A DNA stretch of 32,210 bases from Candidatus Thorarchaeota archaeon. Its GTDB lineage: Archaea > Asgardarchaeota > Thorarchaeia > Thorarchaeales > Thorarchaeaceae. A program made the translations under genes and the position numbers. A model generated the notes under the pieces. That model did not search any database. It saw only the letters and a program-made list of their open reading frames with translations, and was not told the origin of the DNA. Shown piece by piece: positions 1 through 5,666 of the stretch. Location of the stretch: positions 1 through 32,210 of the forward strand of contig JAEOUG010000145.1 in assembly GCA_016839445.1 (NCBI GenBank). Direction: 5' to 3'. Every line of letters begins with the position of its first letter. Position 1 is the first letter of the stretch.

Positions 1-235
1 CGTAGTCGGGATCGCGGGTTGGAACTCACCCGCGTGAACCTGGAATCCCTAGTATCCGCGTGTCACTATCGCGCGGAGAATACGTCCCTGCTTCTTGCAC
101 ACACCGCCCGTCGCTCCATGCGAGCGGACTTGGGGTGAGGTGTCGTCCACTGGGCGATGACGAATCTTGGGTTCGCAAGTAGGGAGAAGTCGTAACAAGG
201 TATCCGTAGCGGAAGCTGCGGATGGATCACCTCCT
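1..235 (+). rRNA. rrs: 16S rRNA, 3' end (partial)
   Basis: This is the 3' terminal part of a 16S rRNA; the 5' part lies outside the window. Visible landmarks are the universal ACACACCGCCCGTC segment near 100-113, the GTCGTAACAAGG segment at 190-200 and the terminal GGATCACCTCCT at 224-235, which contains the anti-Shine-Dalgarno sequence. This tail pairs with GGAGGTGAT, and several genes here (for example at 4653, 19260 and 22353) carry GAGGTGAT or AGGTGA upstream of their starts. No tRNA-Ala or 23S rRNA follows, so the 16S gene appears unlinked from 23S on its 3' side. The exact mature end is estimated from the motif. Confidence 0.97.
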
Positions 236-244
236 ATGCTTTAT

Positions 245-354
245 CCATCTCAGATGGGTAAGAAGTAGAGGCGGCGGAGTTAGTTGTGCAGCTTAGGTTG
301 CATCCAGGGAACTTTCCCACACCCACATTGTTGAGCACCCTTTTCATTTTGCAT
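245..354 (+). repeat. R1: first copy of rRNA-trailer repeat
   Basis: This ~110-bp element begins about 10 bases after the 16S end. Near-identical copies lie at 903-1010 and 1595-1704. Its core reads AGAGGCGGCGGAGTTAGTTG, followed by a hairpin (TGCAGC, loop TTAG, GTTGCA), a second hairpin (GGGA, loop ACTT, TCCC), then CACATTGTTGAGCACCC and a T-rich end (TTTTCATTTTGCAT). The T-rich end could terminate transcription. As R1 sits directly in the 16S trailer it may be part of the rRNA 3' processing or termination region. It could instead be a stand-alone small RNA. The repetition is certain; the role is inference. Confidence 0.85.
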
Positions 355-399
355 AGTCAATCCAACGCAGTAGACATGCTGTATTGCTGTCAGGCAACA

Positions 400-428
400 A
401 CGAGATTATAAGCAACTATCAGTACTAT
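400..428 (+). promoter_or_regulatory. possible promoter of toxin-antitoxin pair
   Basis: Two A/T-rich TATA-like stretches, GATTATAAGC and GTACTATAAG, lie just before the antitoxin start at 434. The first is about 25-30 bases upstream, so transcription could start at or near the start codon. No strong Shine-Dalgarno is seen, which fits a nearly leaderless transcript. This is a weak call from sequence context only. Confidence 0.35.
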
Positions 429-433
429 AAGTC

Positions 434-631
434 ATGATAGATATGAGCGAGACAACCACTATTCCTCTCACTAAGGCGACTCGTGATCTCTTGAAGCGGT
501 TCGGACAGAAGGGAGAGACCTACGATGAACTCATTCGCCGTCTCCTTGAGGTAGCCCAACAGGTGGAATTCGCTAACAGGCAGAGACGAATACTCGAGGA
601 AGAGGAGTTCGTGCCGCTTGACCAAGTATAG
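434..631 (+). CDS. antitoxin of RelE/ParE-type TA pair
   Basis: This small protein (65 aa from ATG 434, or 62 aa from ATG 443) has an N-terminal IPLTKATRDLLKRFG segment. That arrangement is typical of ribbon-helix-helix or VapB/RelB-like antitoxins: a short strand, then helices, then KGETYDELIRRLLE. The C-terminal half is acidic (LEEEEFVPLDQV), as expected for a toxin-neutralising tail. Its end overlaps the next gene by 14 bases in another frame, a common toxin-antitoxin arrangement. The pair is bracketed by repeats R1 and R2. The antitoxin role rests on size, composition and neighbour; the exact antitoxin family is not certain. Confidence 0.75.
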   Translation: MIDMSETTTIPLTKATRDLLKRFGQKGETYDELIRRLLEVAQQVEFANRQRRILEEEEFVPLDQV

Positions 632-899
632 AGTTCTGCTTTCTGAGTCCGCGGTTTCTCAACTGAGTTTGCTTGATGGAAAGCAGAAGAGCAGAGTCAG
701 GAAAGCTCTGTTCACGTTAGAGGACGACCCCTTCAGAAGGAGATCTGGTACAGACATCAAGAGGCTTCTGACTCCGAGTGAACCAGCTCTGTTCCGACTG
801 CGGATAGGTGACTATCGCGCTATCTACTTCGTAATAGACCAAGAAGTCAGGGTGACCGAGATAATCCATCGAAGTAAGGGATACAAGTGGCTGGAGTAG
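618..899 (+). CDS. RelE/ParE-family toxin
   Basis: This 93-aa protein starts at TTG 618 inside the antitoxin gene. It has the RelE/ParE layout: an N-terminal strand (YRVLLSESAVSQLSLL), a helical segment with basic residues (KQKSRVRKAL), the DDPF turn, LFRLRIGDYRAIYFVID and a C-terminal strand with IIHRSKGYKWLE. The R-x-G-D-Y-R signature and the final basic strand are characteristic of the family, which in most members cleaves mRNA on the ribosome; ParE members instead act on gyrase. Sequence alone does not separate the two. It is translationally coupled to the antitoxin. Acquisition by transfer is plausible because the pair lies between direct repeats. Confidence 0.85.
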   Translation: MTKYRVLLSESAVSQLSLLDGKQKSRVRKALFTLEDDPFRRRSGTDIKRLLTPSEPALFRLRIGDYRAIYFVIDQEVRVTEIIHRSKGYKWLE

Positions 900-902
900 T
901 CT

Positions 903-1010
903 TCACCCCAGATACGTAAGAGGTAGAGGCGGCGGAGTTAGTTGTGCAGCTTAGGTTGCATCCAGGGAACTTGCCCTCCTCACATTGTTGAGCACCCTTT
1001 CATTTTGCAT
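903..1010 (+). repeat. R2: second copy of rRNA-trailer repeat
   Basis: This copy starts just after the toxin stop codon. Its core, TGCAGC/GTTGCA hairpin and CACATTGTTGAGCACCC block are identical to R1. The second hairpin is changed to AGGG, loop AACTTG, CCCT, so R1 and R2 differ but both can still pair. The 5' part is more divergent (CAGATACGTAAGAGG against CAGATGGGTAAGAAG). The tail CATTTTGCAT continues into sequence that is found again near 3895 next to the paralogous gene. Confidence 0.85.
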
Positions 1011-1041
1011 ATTTCGTTGGTTGTAGTAGATTCCCTTATCG

Positions 1042-1527
1042 TCACTTCAAGTAGTAGCTGTGATCACAGCAATCATCCCCACTCATGAGTCGTTTCGTAA
1101 TCTTGAACTCCATGGCCGGATTGAAGCCTGCAACTATGTGGGGATCAGTACTGCAATGAAACACTAGTCCATGCTCAGGCTTACCAATCTCGAGATACGT
1201 GTCTGCGATAGGGCATTTCGTGCAACGGATCTGTGCAGAGTTCTCGGTCCTCTCGACTGTGAACTCACCGCCTGCCTGCTCAAATGAACTCCACAGTGTG
1301 TCGAGAATGGCGTCGATGTCGTTGCTTCCGTGCTGTTTGGCAATCTCAAACCACGTTTTCTTGATGGTGTCGGCAATAATCTCAAGGACCCGTTTCTCTG
1401 CTTGTGGTCCGAATTCCCTCTCATATCTCTCAACAAGAGATCTCAGTCTCTCCGGATCTGGTCGAGCACTATGGATCTGCTTCACCAATTCCTTGAGTCG
1501 ATCATCTTCAGTATGAAGGTCTGTCAT
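1042..1527 (-). CDS. ATC hydrolase-like protein, copy A
   Basis: A 161-aa protein starting at ATG 1527. The N-terminal half is helical and charged. The C-terminal half contains C102, C105 and C125 and ends in the segment MSGDDCCDHSYYLK. The pattern of a Cys-x-x-Cys pair, a FHCSTDPHIVAGFNP segment and a final G-D-x-C-C-x-H resembles the L-2-amino-thiazoline-4-carboxylic acid hydrolase family, whose members are often of unknown substrate. The assignment is by motif memory and the substrate is not known. A close paralogue of exactly the same length lies at 3936-4421. The gene lies between repeats R2 and R3, in opposite orientation to the TA pair. Confidence 0.65.
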   Translation of the reverse strand: MTDLHTEDDRLKELVKQIHSARPDPERLRSLVERYEREFGPQAEKRVLEIIADTIKKTWFEIAKQHGSNDIDAILDTLWSSFEQAGGEFTVERTENSAQIRCTKCPIADTYLEIGKPEHGLVFHCSTDPHIVAGFNPAMEFKITKRLMSGDDCCDHSYYLK

Positions 1528-1594
1528 GTTTCAGTCTGTGGCTGAACAGCATAAGAAGCACTAGCTCCAATTGAGTTCAAGGGAAAGCAGTCTG

Positions 1595-1704
1595 TCCACC
1601 TTAGATGGGTAAGAAGTAGAGGCGGCGGAGTCAGTTGTGCAGCTTGGGCTGCATCCAGGGAACTTGCCCTACTCACATTACTGAGCACCCTTTCTGTTTT
1701 GCAT
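1595..1704 (+). repeat. R3: third copy of rRNA-trailer repeat
   Basis: This copy matches R1 from TCCA at its left edge to GCAT at its right edge. The first hairpin changes from TGCAGC/GTTGCA to TGCAGC/GCTGCA, so a G-U pair becomes G-C and pairing is kept. The second hairpin is AGGG/CCCT. The end is CTGAGCACCCTTTCTGTTTTGCAT. The compensating change supports selection on RNA structure. It sits upstream of gene A and downstream of the methyltransferase at 1747-2508, both on the opposite strand. Confidence 0.85.
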
Positions 1705-1746
1705 TATCCATGTCGATAGTCCTGTCTGCAGGTGTACGCCTTCACT

Positions 1747-2508
1747 TCATAATGAGGCGACCACCAACATCTCGAAGTCCTCAGTTGTCAGTTCATGCTC
1801 TCTAGAGAACTCGCCGAGCCTGGCACCGAAGATGCAGATGTTTCTGAAACCGAGGCTCTTCAGTAGCCATGTTATCTCACTTGGCACGTAGTACCTCTCG
1901 TTTGCCCTGAGTTCCAGCTCTTTGCCGTCATCATCAGTGATTGTGATGATGCTGTGGTCCCTGAATGTCATGAGGTCAAATGTATTGGATCTGTATGTGG
2001 CCTTCCCGTCCTTTGTGCCCACTGCATGGAACTCCTCAACTGAGTGGCAAAGCGGAAACAACCCGTTCAGGCTGGTGAAGATGAACCTGCCAGGACTGCG
2101 AAGGGCCCTGGCCACGCCCTCCAGTATCTGATAGTTCATCTCATCGGTCTCCATGAGTGGAAAGGCGCCCTCGCAGAGCATGATGGCGGCATCGAACTCA
2201 TTTTCGAATGGGAGCTCTCTGGCATCAAGGCGCAGGAACTCTACCTCCACACCTGCCTCCTCAGCTTTCTGCTTGGCCCTGACGAGCTGGGCCTCTGACA
2301 GGTCGATGCCAGTTACATCGTATCCCCTCTTGGCCAGTTCTATTGCATGTCTTCCAGTACCGCAGCCCACATCAAGAATGCGGAGTGCCTTGTCACGGGC
2401 CAGCTCCTTCTCGATGAAGTCGCATTCCCCCAGCGTGCCTTTGACGAACGACTCCTCGTCGTACTTTCTGGCATAATTCTCGAAGAGGGCCTCGTACCAT
2501 TCCTTCAT
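1747..2508 (-). CDS. class I SAM-dependent methyltransferase
   Basis: A 253-aa protein from ATG 2508, with a good AAGAGG ribosome site just upstream. Motif I is ILDVGCGTGRHAIELA at about residues 44-59, followed by VTGIDLSEAQL (acidic end of strand 2) and LRLDARELPF (motif III region). These define a class I Rossmann methyltransferase that binds S-adenosylmethionine. The middle part (CEGAFPLMETDEMN) matches the small-molecule or UbiE/ubiquinone-like branch more than RNA or protein enzymes, but the substrate cannot be read from the sequence. A TATA-like TTTAGATAATATCC lies about 45 bases upstream on the coding strand. It is followed by R3 and appears to be a single-gene unit. Confidence 0.85.
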   Translation of the reverse strand: MKEWYEALFENYARKYDEESFVKGTLGECDFIEKELARDKALRILDVGCGTGRHAIELAKRGYDVTGIDLSEAQLVRAKQKAEEAGVEVEFLRLDARELPFENEFDAAIMLCEGAFPLMETDEMNYQILEGVARALRSPGRFIFTSLNGLFPLCHSVEEFHAVGTKDGKATYRSNTFDLMTFRDHSIITITDDDGKELELRANERYYVPSEITWLLKSLGFRNICIFGARLGEFSREHELTTEDFEMLVVASL

Positions 2509-2821
2509 CTTGCTTCCTCTTGAGTGTCTACGATATGGGACTATGGACGGATATTATCTAAAGACTTCTACTCCTGAGAATAGGTCACAACTCACAAGGT
2601 ATCTGTCGCAGAAGCTGCCTGCTGGAAGAGGATGAGATTTCCAGTCGCGCCTGTACCACGATTCGAGAAGCGCTGTAGTGCTACCCCTAATCGGTCACAT
2701 GATTGACGGTCAGAAAAGACCACGGCTTTCAAAACGGCAATGGATTTGGAGGCTGTTGCTTCATTGCTGTCTTGAGGCTTGTTATATGCACCGAGTGCGC
2801 ATCTAGACCAGTGAGAGTCAG
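2509..2821. other. 313-bp gene-free divergent region
   Basis: This gap separates the methyltransferase (minus strand) from the HTH protein (plus strand). It holds the methyltransferase promoter (near 2545-2565), a 16S-3'-end-like stretch at 2594-2617, and a TATA-like GTTATATGC at 2779-2787, about 35 bases before the ATG at 2822. Long frames crossing it on the minus strand look like shadows. Nothing else could be assigned. Confidence 0.6.
2594..2617 (+). pseudogene. fragment resembling the 16S rRNA 3' end
   Basis: The sequence CAAGGTATCTGTCGCAGAAG, then CTGC, matches bases 197-220 of this window's 16S gene at 21 of 24 positions. The match stops before the anti-Shine-Dalgarno tail. Upstream, only scattered agreement (GAGAA, GTC, AA) can be found with gaps. 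Chance similarity of this strength in 32 kb is unlikely by simple counting. It could be a relic of a duplicated rRNA end, linked with the nearby trailer repeats. It is too short to have rRNA function. Confidence 0.5.
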
Positions 2822-3868
2822 ATGTCTGGCCAGAAGGAATACGACGGCAGTAGGATCTACCTTTCGTTGGCAGGTAGCGGTGACCCATGGAGTTCTCTAA
2901 GCAAATTAAGAAAGAGGATTCTGAGAGAGCTGCATGATGCGCCTGATGTCGGCAATCTAGCATCGATACTTGACAAGACTCCTGATGAACTAGAAGCGGA
3001 GATTCATCCAATGATGGCGGCAAGTCTTGTCCATGAGACAGACGGAGGATTTCGGCCATCATTTCTTGTCACAGATGAATCTGAGACTCAGAGGGTGTTT
3101 GCTCATGCATCCGATTTTTCTAAGGCTCTAGTTGACACGACAGAAGCGAAGCTCTCTTGGATCAAATCAGAGTATGAGAAACTCGAGATCAATCAAGAGC
3201 ATGGTTTCGAAGAGGTATCCCTCTTCTTTCTAGGTGGACGAATACTTGACATCAAACTGCTCGAGAAACTGACGGGACACAATCGGGTGATGCCTCCTGC
3301 TCCGGCACGACCAAGTCCGAGTAGGCCCGATGCCCATTACTACTTCTACATGGTTGAAGGAGATCCCAAGAATCTTGGAGGATGGGGGCAAGATGATTCC
3401 AGAATGCCCTGGGATGGCTGGTACTTCATAACGTTTGGACAGAATGTAGTAGATGGTGAATACAATCCTCATCGTAGGTCGTTAGAGAAGCAATACGAAG
3501 AACTCATAGAATCTGGAAAAGCAGATACTCCGGAATTCGTCGGTGCAAGCTTGGGCATCCCTGTTGTGAGTCTATCCGATTCCAACATGTGGGAGAATAC
3601 CGCAGATCTCCTTGCTGAAGAACTCTGTGGATGCTATGAAGAATCTGTAGAATCCATCAGAGCATTACACAAGGGTCTGCGATCAGGCACCTACGCCCCC
3701 CACAGCATTGGTGAGTTCTTCTGCTGGTATGCTCATATTGCGTATGCCAATGCAATCGAACTAATGGAGGAACGAGGTACACTAGATATTCCCGACTCAC
3801 GCCTCCAATCGGCTATATGGTGCAGAGAAAGAGAAAACGAAGGATTGCTGGCTCATCTATCAGATTGA
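2822..3868 (+). CDS. uncharacterised protein with N-terminal HTH
   Basis: A 348-aa protein starting at ATG 2822 with a TATA-like box about 38 bases upstream. Residues 25-75 (LRKRILRELHDAPDVGNLASILDKTPDELEAEIHPMMAASLV) look like a winged-helix DNA-binding segment. The middle has a proline-rich break (PPAPARPSPSRP) near residues 158-170. The C-terminal part is rich in aromatic and acidic residues (YYFYMVEGDPKN, WYFITFGQNV, FFCWYAHIAYANAIELMEE) and predicted mostly soluble. No known family was recognised. A regulator with a ligand-binding C-terminal domain is possible, but this is inference. It is a single gene, not in an operon. Confidence 0.8.
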   Translation: MSGQKEYDGSRIYLSLAGSGDPWSSLSKLRKRILRELHDAPDVGNLASILDKTPDELEAEIHPMMAASLVHETDGGFRPSFLVTDESETQRVFAHASDFSKALVDTTEAKLSWIKSEYEKLEINQEHGFEEVSLFFLGGRILDIKLLEKLTGHNRVMPPAPARPSPSRPDAHYYFYMVEGDPKNLGGWGQDDSRMPWDGWYFITFGQNVVDGEYNPHRRSLEKQYEELIESGKADTPEFVGASLGIPVVSLSDSNMWENTADLLAEELCGCYEESVESIRALHKGLRSGTYAPHSIGEFFCWYAHIAYANAIELMEERGTLDIPDSRLQSAIWCRERENEGLLAHLSD

Positions 3869-3893
3869 CTGCTCTATCATCTTTGGCGCCGTT

Positions 3894-3935
3894 CCATTTT
3901 GCATATTCAGTTGGCTGAAGTGGATTCTCATTTTG
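3894..3935 (+). repeat. partial repeat tail next to gene copy B
   Basis: The stretch starting CATTTTGCATATTCAGTTGG matches the end of R2 and its flank (CATTTTGCATATTTCGTTGG, from 1001), and the similarity continues through GTCACTTCAAG into the 3' end of the two paralogous genes. The rest of the repeat (hairpins and purine-rich core) is missing here. This shows that gene B was duplicated together with the edge of R2, or the reverse. Confidence 0.7.
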
Positions 3936-4421
3936 TCACTTCAAGAAGTAATAGTGATCACAGCAATCATCTCCACTCATGAGCCGTTTCGTTATCTTGA
4001 ACTCCATGGATGGATTGAAGCCTGCTACAATGTGAGGGTCAGTACTGCAATGGAACATCAACCCATACTCAGGTCTGCCAATCTCAAGATAGGTGTCTGC
4101 TACCGGACACTTGGTACAACGAATCTGCGCTGAATTCTCTGTCCTCTCAACTGCAAACTCTGCCCCTACTCTCTTGAAGGGTTTCCATAGCGTATCAAGA
4201 ACGCCATCAATGTCGTTGCTCTCTACCCTCTTGGAGATCTCGGTCCATGCTCTCTTGGTGGTTTCTGCAATGATCTCGAGAACCCGATCGTCTGCCTCTG
4301 GCCCGAACTCCCTCTCGTATCTATCGAGAAGAGACTTCAACAGCTCCGGATTAGGCCGGGCGCCATGAATCTGGCTGACCAGTCTTCTGAGTTCGCCATC
4401 CTGTGTTTCCGAGTCCTTCAC
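3936..4421 (-). CDS. ATC hydrolase-like protein, copy B
   Basis: A paralogue of the protein at 1042-1527. The start is placed at GTG 4421, preceded by AAGGA, because this gives 161 aa, the same length as copy A, and aligns VKDSETQDGELRRLV with the start of copy A. A longer frame to TTG 4484 would add 21 residues not found in copy A. The last 70 residues are nearly identical (RTENSAQIRCTKCP, IVAGFNP, MSGDDCCDH), while the N-terminal half has diverged more (IHGARPNPELLKSLLDRYE). The conserved Cys, Asp and His residues are all kept, so both copies are likely functional. Family assignment has the same caveat as for copy A. Confidence 0.65.
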   Translation of the reverse strand: MKDSETQDGELRRLVSQIHGARPNPELLKSLLDRYEREFGPEADDRVLEIIAETTKRAWTEISKRVESNDIDGVLDTLWKPFKRVGAEFAVERTENSAQIRCTKCPVADTYLEIGRPEYGLMFHCSTDPHIVAGFNPSMEFKITKRLMSGDDCCDHYYFLK

Positions 4422-4652
4422 AGCTCTGTCCTTGGCTAGCTTGGATAAAAGACAGCAGTTCCACGCAAGTGGGACATGCCACAAGTTACTTCTTCTTAGA
4501 TGCGAGTACAGGCGACTGGATCTACCGGTTCAGCCTCCCCGTTGTGCCGTAGGCACTCTATGGCAAACGCCTGTTTGTCCGCTCGTGCTTAAATTCTTAA
4601 TACAATTCGAGTCTGCATATCTTCACCATAGAATTGGCACAGCTAACTAGAG

Positions 4653-5666
4653 GTGATTCATCTGCAGCACCTGAGACTGAGTGGTTCATACTACGACATT
4701 GGCAGAGCCTTTGGAGAATCGAGAAGGGGCCTTGACCAATACGGAGAACCAAGTGAGAAGAAGATTGAGCTTACTCTGAAGTATGGGGAGCTGCTACGGG
4801 AGCATGCCTGTGGCCTCCATGATGAGCTGATGGGTTTCTCTGACGGAATCGGACTGAGCCACGAGTCAGTCCTAGTAGCGCAGCTTCTTCCTCCTTGGGC
4901 AACGGGCTGTAATCTGTTCTTCGTAGGTGGGGAGCATACCGAACGCGGTTTCCCTATCTTTGTGAGACACATGGACTGGATAGAGGACGATTTAGAGCGT
5001 CTCGTTATGCTCGAGACAAAGCCCGAGGGAAAGAACGGCGTTCTCGGCTTCAGTTTCGCTGAGATAGGCTGCTATGATGGAATGAACGCTGGTGGTCTGG
5101 CCATAGGAACGGCCTCAGTTCCGTTCTTCAATGGAGCAAAATGCGTGGGTCTCCAAGATAAGCACGTGACCCGATGGGCACTCGACAACTTCTCGTCGGT
5201 TGAGGAAACCGTCGACTATCTGAAACATATCCCTCATGCAGAGGCAATCAATTTCCTCGTCGCGGACAAGACTGGGACCTCCGCTCGGGTGGAGGTAACA
5301 CCTACAAGGGTTCGGGCTGAAGTAGCGAGTGATGGTCTGAACGTCGTCAACAACTTCTTCATCCTCGAAGGCACGCGAGAACTTGACAGCATGCCCACGA
5401 GTGACAGGTCCTGGACTTACAACAGGAGAATCCACGACTGGTTCTCTAATGCAGGAAACAATATTGGGCTGCAAGAGGTGAAGGAAGTCTGCCGTAGTCA
5501 TGAGGAAGGTATATGCGAGCACCTGCAGGATCCTCCGGGGGGCACGATTTACTCATGGATTTCAGAACTGGGGACAAGCACAATCCATCTCTCAGTGGGC
5601 TATCCTTGCTCCAATCAGTATGTTCCGTACCATATTCCACAATCATCTGAAAGGGGCAAGAACTAG
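4653..5666 (+). CDS. C45-type acyltransferase / Ntn-hydrolase
   Basis: A 337-aa protein related to acyl-CoA:6-aminopenicillanic acid acyltransferases (peptidase family C45). The N-terminal LRLSGSYYDIGRAFGE and the catalytic-type ATGCNLFF with C86, followed by RGFPIFVRHMDWIEDD, are the usual family signature: the Cys becomes the N-terminal nucleophile after self-cleavage. The start is unclear. GTG 4653 lies inside a perfect GAGGTGAT Shine-Dalgarno, so the true start may be the in-frame CTG at 4662 or another nearby codon. There is no signal peptide, so it is probably cytosolic, unlike the second C45-like protein at 24876. The physiological amide substrate is unknown. Confidence 0.85.
   Translation: MIHLQHLRLSGSYYDIGRAFGESRRGLDQYGEPSEKKIELTLKYGELLREHACGLHDELMGFSDGIGLSHESVLVAQLLPPWATGCNLFFVGGEHTERGFPIFVRHMDWIEDDLERLVMLETKPEGKNGVLGFSFAEIGCYDGMNAGGLAIGTASVPFFNGAKCVGLQDKHVTRWALDNFSSVEETVDYLKHIPHAEAINFLVADKTGTSARVEVTPTRVRAEVASDGLNVVNNFFILEGTRELDSMPTSDRSWTYNRRIHDWFSNAGNNIGLQEVKEVCRSHEEGICEHLQDPPGGTIYSWISELGTSTIHLSVGYPCSNQYVPYHIPQSSERGKN

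Follow-up and report, generated by a model that had tools for sequence, protein, structure and literature searches.

Why the sequence that follows a 16S ribosomal RNA (rRNA) gene should recur between accessory genes is the question raised by the start of contig JAEOUG010000145.1 of Candidatus Thorarchaeota. The stretch analysed (positions 1 to 32,210 of this contig, hereafter the window) begins inside the 16S gene, and the 3' part of that gene (1..235, + strand; Rfam RF01959, 220 bits) is followed on the same strand by three repeats, the 16S-linked 3' trailer R1 (236..356, with the repeat match at about 246-356) and the trailer copies R2 (about 904..1014) and R3 (about 1597..1709). A sequence-only reading of this DNA had proposed three copies of an rRNA-trailer element, with R1 starting about 10 nucleotides (nt) past the 16S end and with R2 and R3 near-identical and flanking a toxin-antitoxin pair and an ATC-hydrolase-like gene. 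The three copies and the start of R1 were confirmed; blastn matches to R1 were 92% for R2 (expectation value, E, 2e-36) and 87% for R3 (E 2e-32), and the repeats are real, with a similarity far beyond chance. R2 and R3 are alike (87% identity over 103 nt, ungapped), for which the earlier wording was slightly strong, and the ATC-hydrolase gene does lie between them, whereas the toxin-antitoxin pair lies between R1 and R2. The region is read here as probably the beginning of an array of mobile gene cassettes whose anchor is the 16S rRNA gene.

Each repeat is a copy of the 16S 3' trailer, made up of a hairpin, the processing stem's 3' strand and a T-rich end (CACCCTTTTCATTTTGCA in R1) whose appearance suggests an archaeal terminator. 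In relatives, the reverse complement of the repeat was found immediately upstream of 16S. The reverse-complement match on contig C6 of the window's genome, the contig that holds the 5' half of the window's 16S gene, is likewise the 16S leader. The leader-trailer duplex of one relative (G003) was calculated at -85.1 kcal/mol, against -52.7 (standard deviation 5.2) for 200 shuffled trailers. Paired with the leader of its own genome, R1 gave -77.2 kcal/mol against -61.8 (standard deviation 5.1; 200 shuffles), and R2 and R3 gave -83.9 and -80.7 kcal/mol against shuffle means of -61.3 and -65.4. At least one of the 200 shuffles equalled the real pairing for R1 and for R3, so that leader pairing alone is moderate evidence in the window's genome. 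Single-strand folds of R1-R3 were no better than those of shuffles (z -0.51, 0.54 and 0.95), and RNAalifold returned zero consensus base pairs on 42 copies, for which reason the repeat model built from these copies scores sequence only. Rfam matches were to 16S alone, in the window and in two of eight loci.

To describe the distribution of the repeat, genomes of Asgard archaea were searched by blastn and with the sequence model (genomes, contigs and loci carry the prefixes G, C and L). Matches by blastn were obtained in 25 of 59 genomes, the window's own included, and were mostly clustered on single contigs; one match lay outside the Thorarchaeota family, in G055 (33 nt, E 0.003). At E 0.01 the sequence model matched 43 of 47 family genomes, a count in which some matches are the 16S leader, and 30 of the 47 were matched at least three times. 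At E 0.001 and with stricter filters it matched 41 of 227 Asgard genomes, every one in the Thorarchaeota family, and none of the 180 genomes outside it. A scan for an exact pattern gave 22 stretches, of which 14 were from Candidatus Thorarchaeota (13 contigs, 12 assemblies) and eight were on bacterial contigs, the latter being taken as chance. G030 and G033 had the 16S trailer and leader only, and G019 had the trailer and one more partial match. No trailer was found in plasmids or, with the exact pattern, in IMG/VR, and the 20 phage records listed match the 16S tail only.

Eight loci of other Asgard families were also inspected, up to about 14 kb downstream of 16S, and a single direct second copy stood out, in G045 (L142), where 73 nt of the genome's own trailer recur at 85% identity and in the same orientation about 3.0 kb downstream of 16S. 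This is possibly an independent start of the same phenomenon. Among the remaining loci, an inverted match of 57 nt was obtained in G041, and in G053 an A+T-rich trailer gave weak matches.

In the Thorarchaeota family, the copies form arrays. Nine contigs carry an array together with a 16S end (from G000, G003, G008, G009, G011, G018, G025, G034 and G061), and on each of them the main array lies downstream of 16S on the same strand. Many further arrays sit on contigs without 16S, and the 16S contigs of G022 and G016 stop less than 150 nt beyond the 16S match. Two genomes, G034 and G036, consist of a single scaffold, and in each every match below E 0.01 is confined to one region, which in G034 begins at a 16S 3' end next to an N gap; no 16S was found in G036. 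The arrays include some embedded in long contigs of 243, 120 and 83 kb. Forty fetched loci and the window together gave 122 inter-repeat intervals of up to 6 kb (four longer ones were dropped), with a median of 1085 nt. Open reading frames (ORFs) of at least 80 amino acids (aa) numbered one in 66 of these intervals, two in 32, more in 19 and none in five. Trailer copies have one orientation per array, and the longest ORF runs with the repeat direction in 68 intervals and against it in 49. No trend of spacer age with distance from 16S was seen by eye in the scores of the copies against 11 trailers. The array architecture is well supported.

The DNA between the repeats was then compared among genomes. 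Homologous DNA in another genome was found for 86 of the 122 intervals, and among 108 homologous interval pairs, 101 of them testable, the neighbour was kept in four. Only 4 of 288 homology blocks inside arrays (reciprocal pairs being counted twice) run across a repeat, against 85.9 expected and a minimum of 69 in 200 placements, and of the 576 block ends, 254 fall no more than 40 nt from a repeat, against 14% expected. These comparisons show that species share cassettes as units bounded by the spacers, with their order shuffled. Identity of the shared cassette exceeded that of rpoB for the pairs G006-G015 (94.8% over 1651 nt vs 83.2%), G001-G013 (90.5 vs 80.2%), G010-G009 (87.7 vs 78.5%) and G002-G007 (87.6 vs 81.4%). 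Overall, 124 interval-by-genome matches were obtained, 88 with an rpoB value (rpoB was not recovered for G003 and G011), and 38 were above rpoB, 14 of them by more than 5 points. Since some cassettes are much more alike than rpoB, some have moved between species. Two cassettes, A and B, are common to G018 and G029 (rpoB 94.8%) as blocks of about 94%, the cassettes that lie between A and B being different, and the whole repeats that flank A and B are just 52-67% alike.

This last pattern is general, in that whole spacers do not move with the cassettes and are mostly similar to the trailer of the host. Entire repeats on either side of homologous cassettes were no more alike than repeat pairs drawn at random from the same loci, the difference in identity being -0.007 on the left (n=47) and -0.011 on the right (n=89, where blocks shorter than 100 nt are also counted). 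When array copies of eight genomes were compared with 11 trailers, the 16S-linked trailer of the same genome was the closest for 37 of 53 copies, a count that leaves out the 16S trailer of G008 itself; R2 is also closest to the trailer of its own genome. Break points vary among the pairs inspected, with those on the right at different places inside the repeat, and the left cassette edge is sharp, near TTTTGCA, in four inspected pairs of about 95% identity. The 3' edge of the repeat is constant at the T-rich end and its 5' edge is variable: most spacers begin after the 16S end, and 14 have part of the final 43 nt of 16S in front of them. Block ends inside repeats are what crossovers within repeats would leave, and the remainder would be accounted for by conversion towards the host trailer.

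Several further features of the 16S genes and their copies were observed. Mini-intron-like insertions flank helix 45 in real 16S genes, near position 1460 in G008, G016, G025 and G061 (L078, L084, L045 and L093) and at 1493 in G016 and G019 (L084 and L089), and the insert at 1493 recurs in many array tail copies, even where the host 16S is without it (e.g. G011). In G022 (L080), the 16S gene is interrupted near position 873 by about 850 nt, a probable large intron. In G018, the array region contains 27 nt that match 16S positions 1349-1375 exactly, away from any spacer (L043 10988-11014). In G008, at 12 kb upstream of 16S, about 0.5 kb is enclosed by two trailer copies in inverted orientation (L078 3897-3946 and 4433-4579, minus strand); this pair is a detached mini-array.

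The cargo of the arrays was determined from 148 cassette proteins, nearly all taken from a list of 217 ORFs. These matched 148 Pfam families, with PIN in 15 proteins, ParE in eight, the acetyltransferase family PF00583 in seven and the VapB antitoxin in four, and no integrase or recombinase was among the 25 most frequent families. PADLOC and PHROGs comparisons gave one cassette protein similar to TnpB/Cas12f (E about 1e-90) and one, perhaps the same, matching a transposase PHROG (E 1.6e-117), which suggests that an insertion sequence probably entered at least one array.

We lean, with moderate confidence, towards a cassette-exchange locus on the 16S trailer, in which homologous recombination and gene conversion among trailer copies are the probable driving processes. 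Direct trailer copies would act as homology stretches, cells would take up DNA from related Thorarchaeota, and RadA-type homologous recombination between trailer copies would insert, remove or swap a gene that is enclosed by two spacers. The spacers would be continually overwritten by the 16S-linked trailer through gene conversion, and toxin-antitoxin cassettes may help to prevent collapse of the array. Conservation of the trailer, which has to pair with the 16S leader, would mean that every relative carries a compatible landing pad. We infer recombination between trailer copies as the mechanism, and homologous recombination is favoured because whole spacers stay put, break points differ among the inspected pairs and nine array-bearing genomes are without matches to both recombinase families searched.

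A number of observations weigh against this interpretation. Among the matches with an rpoB value, 50 of 88 are not above rpoB. Another genome's trailer is the closer one for 16 of the 53 array copies, some copies in G008 and G018 being of foreign type, and parts of repeats do travel, with shared blocks extending tens of nt into the flanking repeats. For cassette B of G018 and G029, the left and right break points are about equidistant from the repeat end, at about 62 nt, although the contig ends inside the right repeat; these break points fit a fixed crossover too, whereas cassette A does not. The 14 16S tails have recurrent starts, seven at position 1460, three at 1467 and four at 1468-1474 of the G003 gene, and these are the best evidence for a site-specific step, which they would suit. 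Some copies lie away from 16S: in G008 two are inverted and one is on contig C12, and others are on contigs C5 (G035) and C92 (G026). A weak trailer 3'-end relic stands beside a ParE cassette at 1.87 Mb in G036 (L115); the array is about 850 kb away, and insertion at other sites is therefore suggested to happen occasionally. The sequence-only reading had taken random genome sites with no link to 16S or inserted genes as telling against a trailer site; when the link to 16S was tested, copies proved to be mostly, but not exclusively, 16S-linked where linkage is visible.

The recombinase searches are to be weighed with these points. The tyrosine recombinase family PF00589 was unmatched in 11 array-bearing genomes with at least three trailer matches each (G000, G001, G002, G003, G004, G006, G008, G010, G011, G015 and G022; G025, G034 and G036 were outside that search). 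Nine of the genomes (G001, G002, G003, G004, G006, G008, G010, G011 and G015) matched neither PF00589 nor the serine family PF00239, these being the two families searched, with no search for DDE, HUH or reverse transcriptase; all nine are drafts, 80-93% complete, in which absence is no proof. Tyrosine recombinases are present in the array-bearing genomes G007, G009, G012, G013, G018 and others, and serine recombinases in G000, G009, G013, G018, G022, G029 and others.

The searches bear on a rival proposal, in which an unknown, dedicated recombinase would act site-specifically on the 16S trailer and its copies and would insert cassettes there in circular form, in the manner of an integron integrase at attI. 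The integron-like anatomy and cargo (PIN, ParE and acetyltransferases), the recurrent starts of the 16S tails and the sharp left edge near TTTTGCA are all in its favour, but right break points fall at differing places in the repeat, whole repeats do not move with cassettes and PF00589 and PF00239 are unmatched in the nine genomes, so that we regard it as rather unlikely. In attC sites, an R' box GTTRRRY is accompanied upstream by a complementary RYYYAAC box. The 128 trailer copies that remained of 159 after score and end filters included 110 with a GYTRRRY box, GTTGAGC in 79 of them, and RYYYAAC was found 10-160 nt upstream of the box in four of the 128, against 12.1 expected from mononucleotide shuffles. 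The arrays share with integrons tandem cassettes of few genes (98 of 122 intervals with one or two ORFs) that are shuffled between genomes. Assignment to integrons or to clusters of attC sites lacking integron integrases (CALINs) is not supported, as the three defining tests, for attC boxes, for an integrase (in the eleven draft genomes) and for a site that moves with the cassette as a whole, were all negative. A dedicated gene-capture platform, as an independent archaeal counterpart of the integron in which an unknown enzyme would recombine at the pre-16S trailer, or at its DNA in an rRNA-like fold, is a tentative idea to which we give limited weight.

Attachment of integrative elements at the 16S 3' end, with stacked remnants left behind as in tRNA-gene islands, would give arrays downstream of 16S and would place the last 43 nt of 16S, or part of it, before some spacers, as attachment sites at a gene's 3' end do. 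We nevertheless hold it to be quite improbable given the small units (66 of 122 intervals with one ORF of at least 80 aa, 32 with two), the lack of an integrase match in nine genomes, the absence of a recognisable 16S tail from most copies and the lack of a trailer in IMG/VR or plasmids, the listed phage records matching the tail alone. Equally little credence is given to RNA-mediated copying, in which reverse-transcribed pre-16S 3' fragments running from a processing or splice site to the terminator would have been inserted with or between genes. A constant 3' edge at the T-rich end, a variable 5' edge and a recurrent 5' edge near 16S position 1460 that coincides with the mini-intron-like insertion of G008, G016, G025 and G061 speak for it, but each array has a single copy orientation and recent sharing of cassettes requires exchange of DNA. 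A small-RNA gene family with its own promoters and incidental neighbour genes, a form of the alternative offered by the sequence-only reading, accords with the conserved sequence and with the window copies still pairing with the 16S leader. It is very improbable: apart from the trailer hairpin or 16S tail, no upstream region common to the copies was seen by eye, and hence no common promoter; single-strand folds are no better than shuffles; and homology blocks break at the repeats. The genomes are metagenome-assembled, 16S regions assemble badly and the window contig starts inside 16S, which could point to an assembly artefact or a chance tandem duplication; with the exact pattern on 13 Thorarchaeota contigs from 12 assemblies and arrays inside contigs of 243, 120 and 83 kb, this is the remotest of the explanations.

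The exchange locus was also compared with known systems. At islands in tRNA-gene 3' ends, the end of a stable-RNA gene marks the insertion and pieces of the gene's 3' end are duplicated. The Thorarchaeota arrays resemble these islands in their position behind such a gene end and, at the 14 spacers with a 16S tail, in such pieces; they differ in their small units, in their many tandem and mostly host-type spacers and in the lack of an integrase in nine genomes. The sequence-only reading had followed the logic of tRNA attachment sites, and this part of it was not borne out, as whole repeats stay put, the 25 top Pfam families include no integrase and nine genomes are without a tyrosine or serine recombinase match; its view of the 16S 3' trailer region as a site of gene insertion or exchange is supported by the arrays in relatives. 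Silent pilin and polymorphic-toxin cassette loci are reshaped by homologous recombination between repeats, and their cassettes, flanked by homologous stretches, change places with no recombinase of their own. The Thorarchaeota arrays differ in that each cassette is a complete gene unrelated to the others and that the homologous stretch is a copied rRNA processing trailer. Integrons have been reported from archaea, with enrichment in Asgard archaea, in PMC9668308. Integron arrays and CALINs resemble the present arrays in one- or two-gene cassettes, toxin-antitoxin and acetyltransferase genes, same-orientation repeats, shuffling and interspecies transfer; in contrast, the Thorarchaeota repeat is the 16S trailer without paired attC boxes and does not travel whole with the cassette, no PF00589 match was obtained in eleven array-bearing genomes and the anchor is the 16S gene rather than intI-attI. 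Aloposons and other Asgard mobile elements, in the excerpted text of PMC8813620, are similar in tying mobile DNA to stable-RNA (tRNA) genes, but they are large elements for which that text does not describe 16S-trailer repeats. No description of trailer-spaced arrays was found in the open-licence literature, a scope outside which most subscription papers and all preprints fall. The array architecture would be categorically new, while its chemistry may be ordinary homologous recombination.

Within the window, cassette 1 consists of a DUF7557 gene (434..631, + strand; PF24434, E 9e-8), antitoxin-like by position, and a ParE-family toxin gene (618..899, + strand; PF05016, E 3e-7) that stops at the 5' edge of R2; DNA of this pair (398-899) was matched in 23 of 47 family genomes, its own included. 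Cassette 2 is an ATC-hydrolase-family gene (1042..1527, - strand; PF14196, E 9e-18), and DNA homologous to it adjoins repeats in G015 and G010. Cassette 3, past R3, is a methyltransferase gene (1747..2508, - strand; PF13649) with a relative in G013 (81.5%) that begins 54 nt past a trailer copy. The next feature is likely a decayed copy of the 16S 3' tail (helix 45; 2594..2640, + strand; 2594-2618 being 88% identical over 25 nt to 16S 195-219), a relic of a further repeat that, judged by eye, shares the form of tail copies from other arrays. Between it and a likely relic of the repeat 3' end (CCATTTTGCATATTC; 3886..3909, + strand; repeat family match, 86% over 21 nt) lies a 348-aa ORF without a Pfam match (2822..3868, + strand). 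A second ATC-hydrolase gene (3936..4484, - strand; PF14196), paralogous to 1042-1527, and an AAT acyltransferase gene (4653..5666, + strand; PF03417), related to a cassette of G006 (69.9% over 1055 nt), follow. A direct duplication of 300 nt (992-1291 vs 3886-4185, 79%) spans the 3' parts of both ATC-hydrolase genes; it includes the repeat 3' end, and one ATC-hydrolase cassette therefore seems to have been duplicated or acquired twice. After R1-R3, the next-best repeat match in the window scored just 7.4 bits (E 0.066), and in the rest of the draft genome blastn gave only a 19-nt match (E 0.18).

These arrays may help to explain breaks at Thorarchaeota 16S loci in assemblies, and they offer a defined locus for measuring Asgard gene flow. 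They also make it testable whether an rRNA trailer can serve as a recombination site; if the platform with its own enzyme were true, gene acquisition would be built onto the ribosomal RNA gene. An anchor on one of the cell's most conserved genes could permit swaps of cassettes between species without a mobile element, and would represent an apparently undescribed route of gene gain and exchange in Asgard archaea, the archaea closest to eukaryotes.

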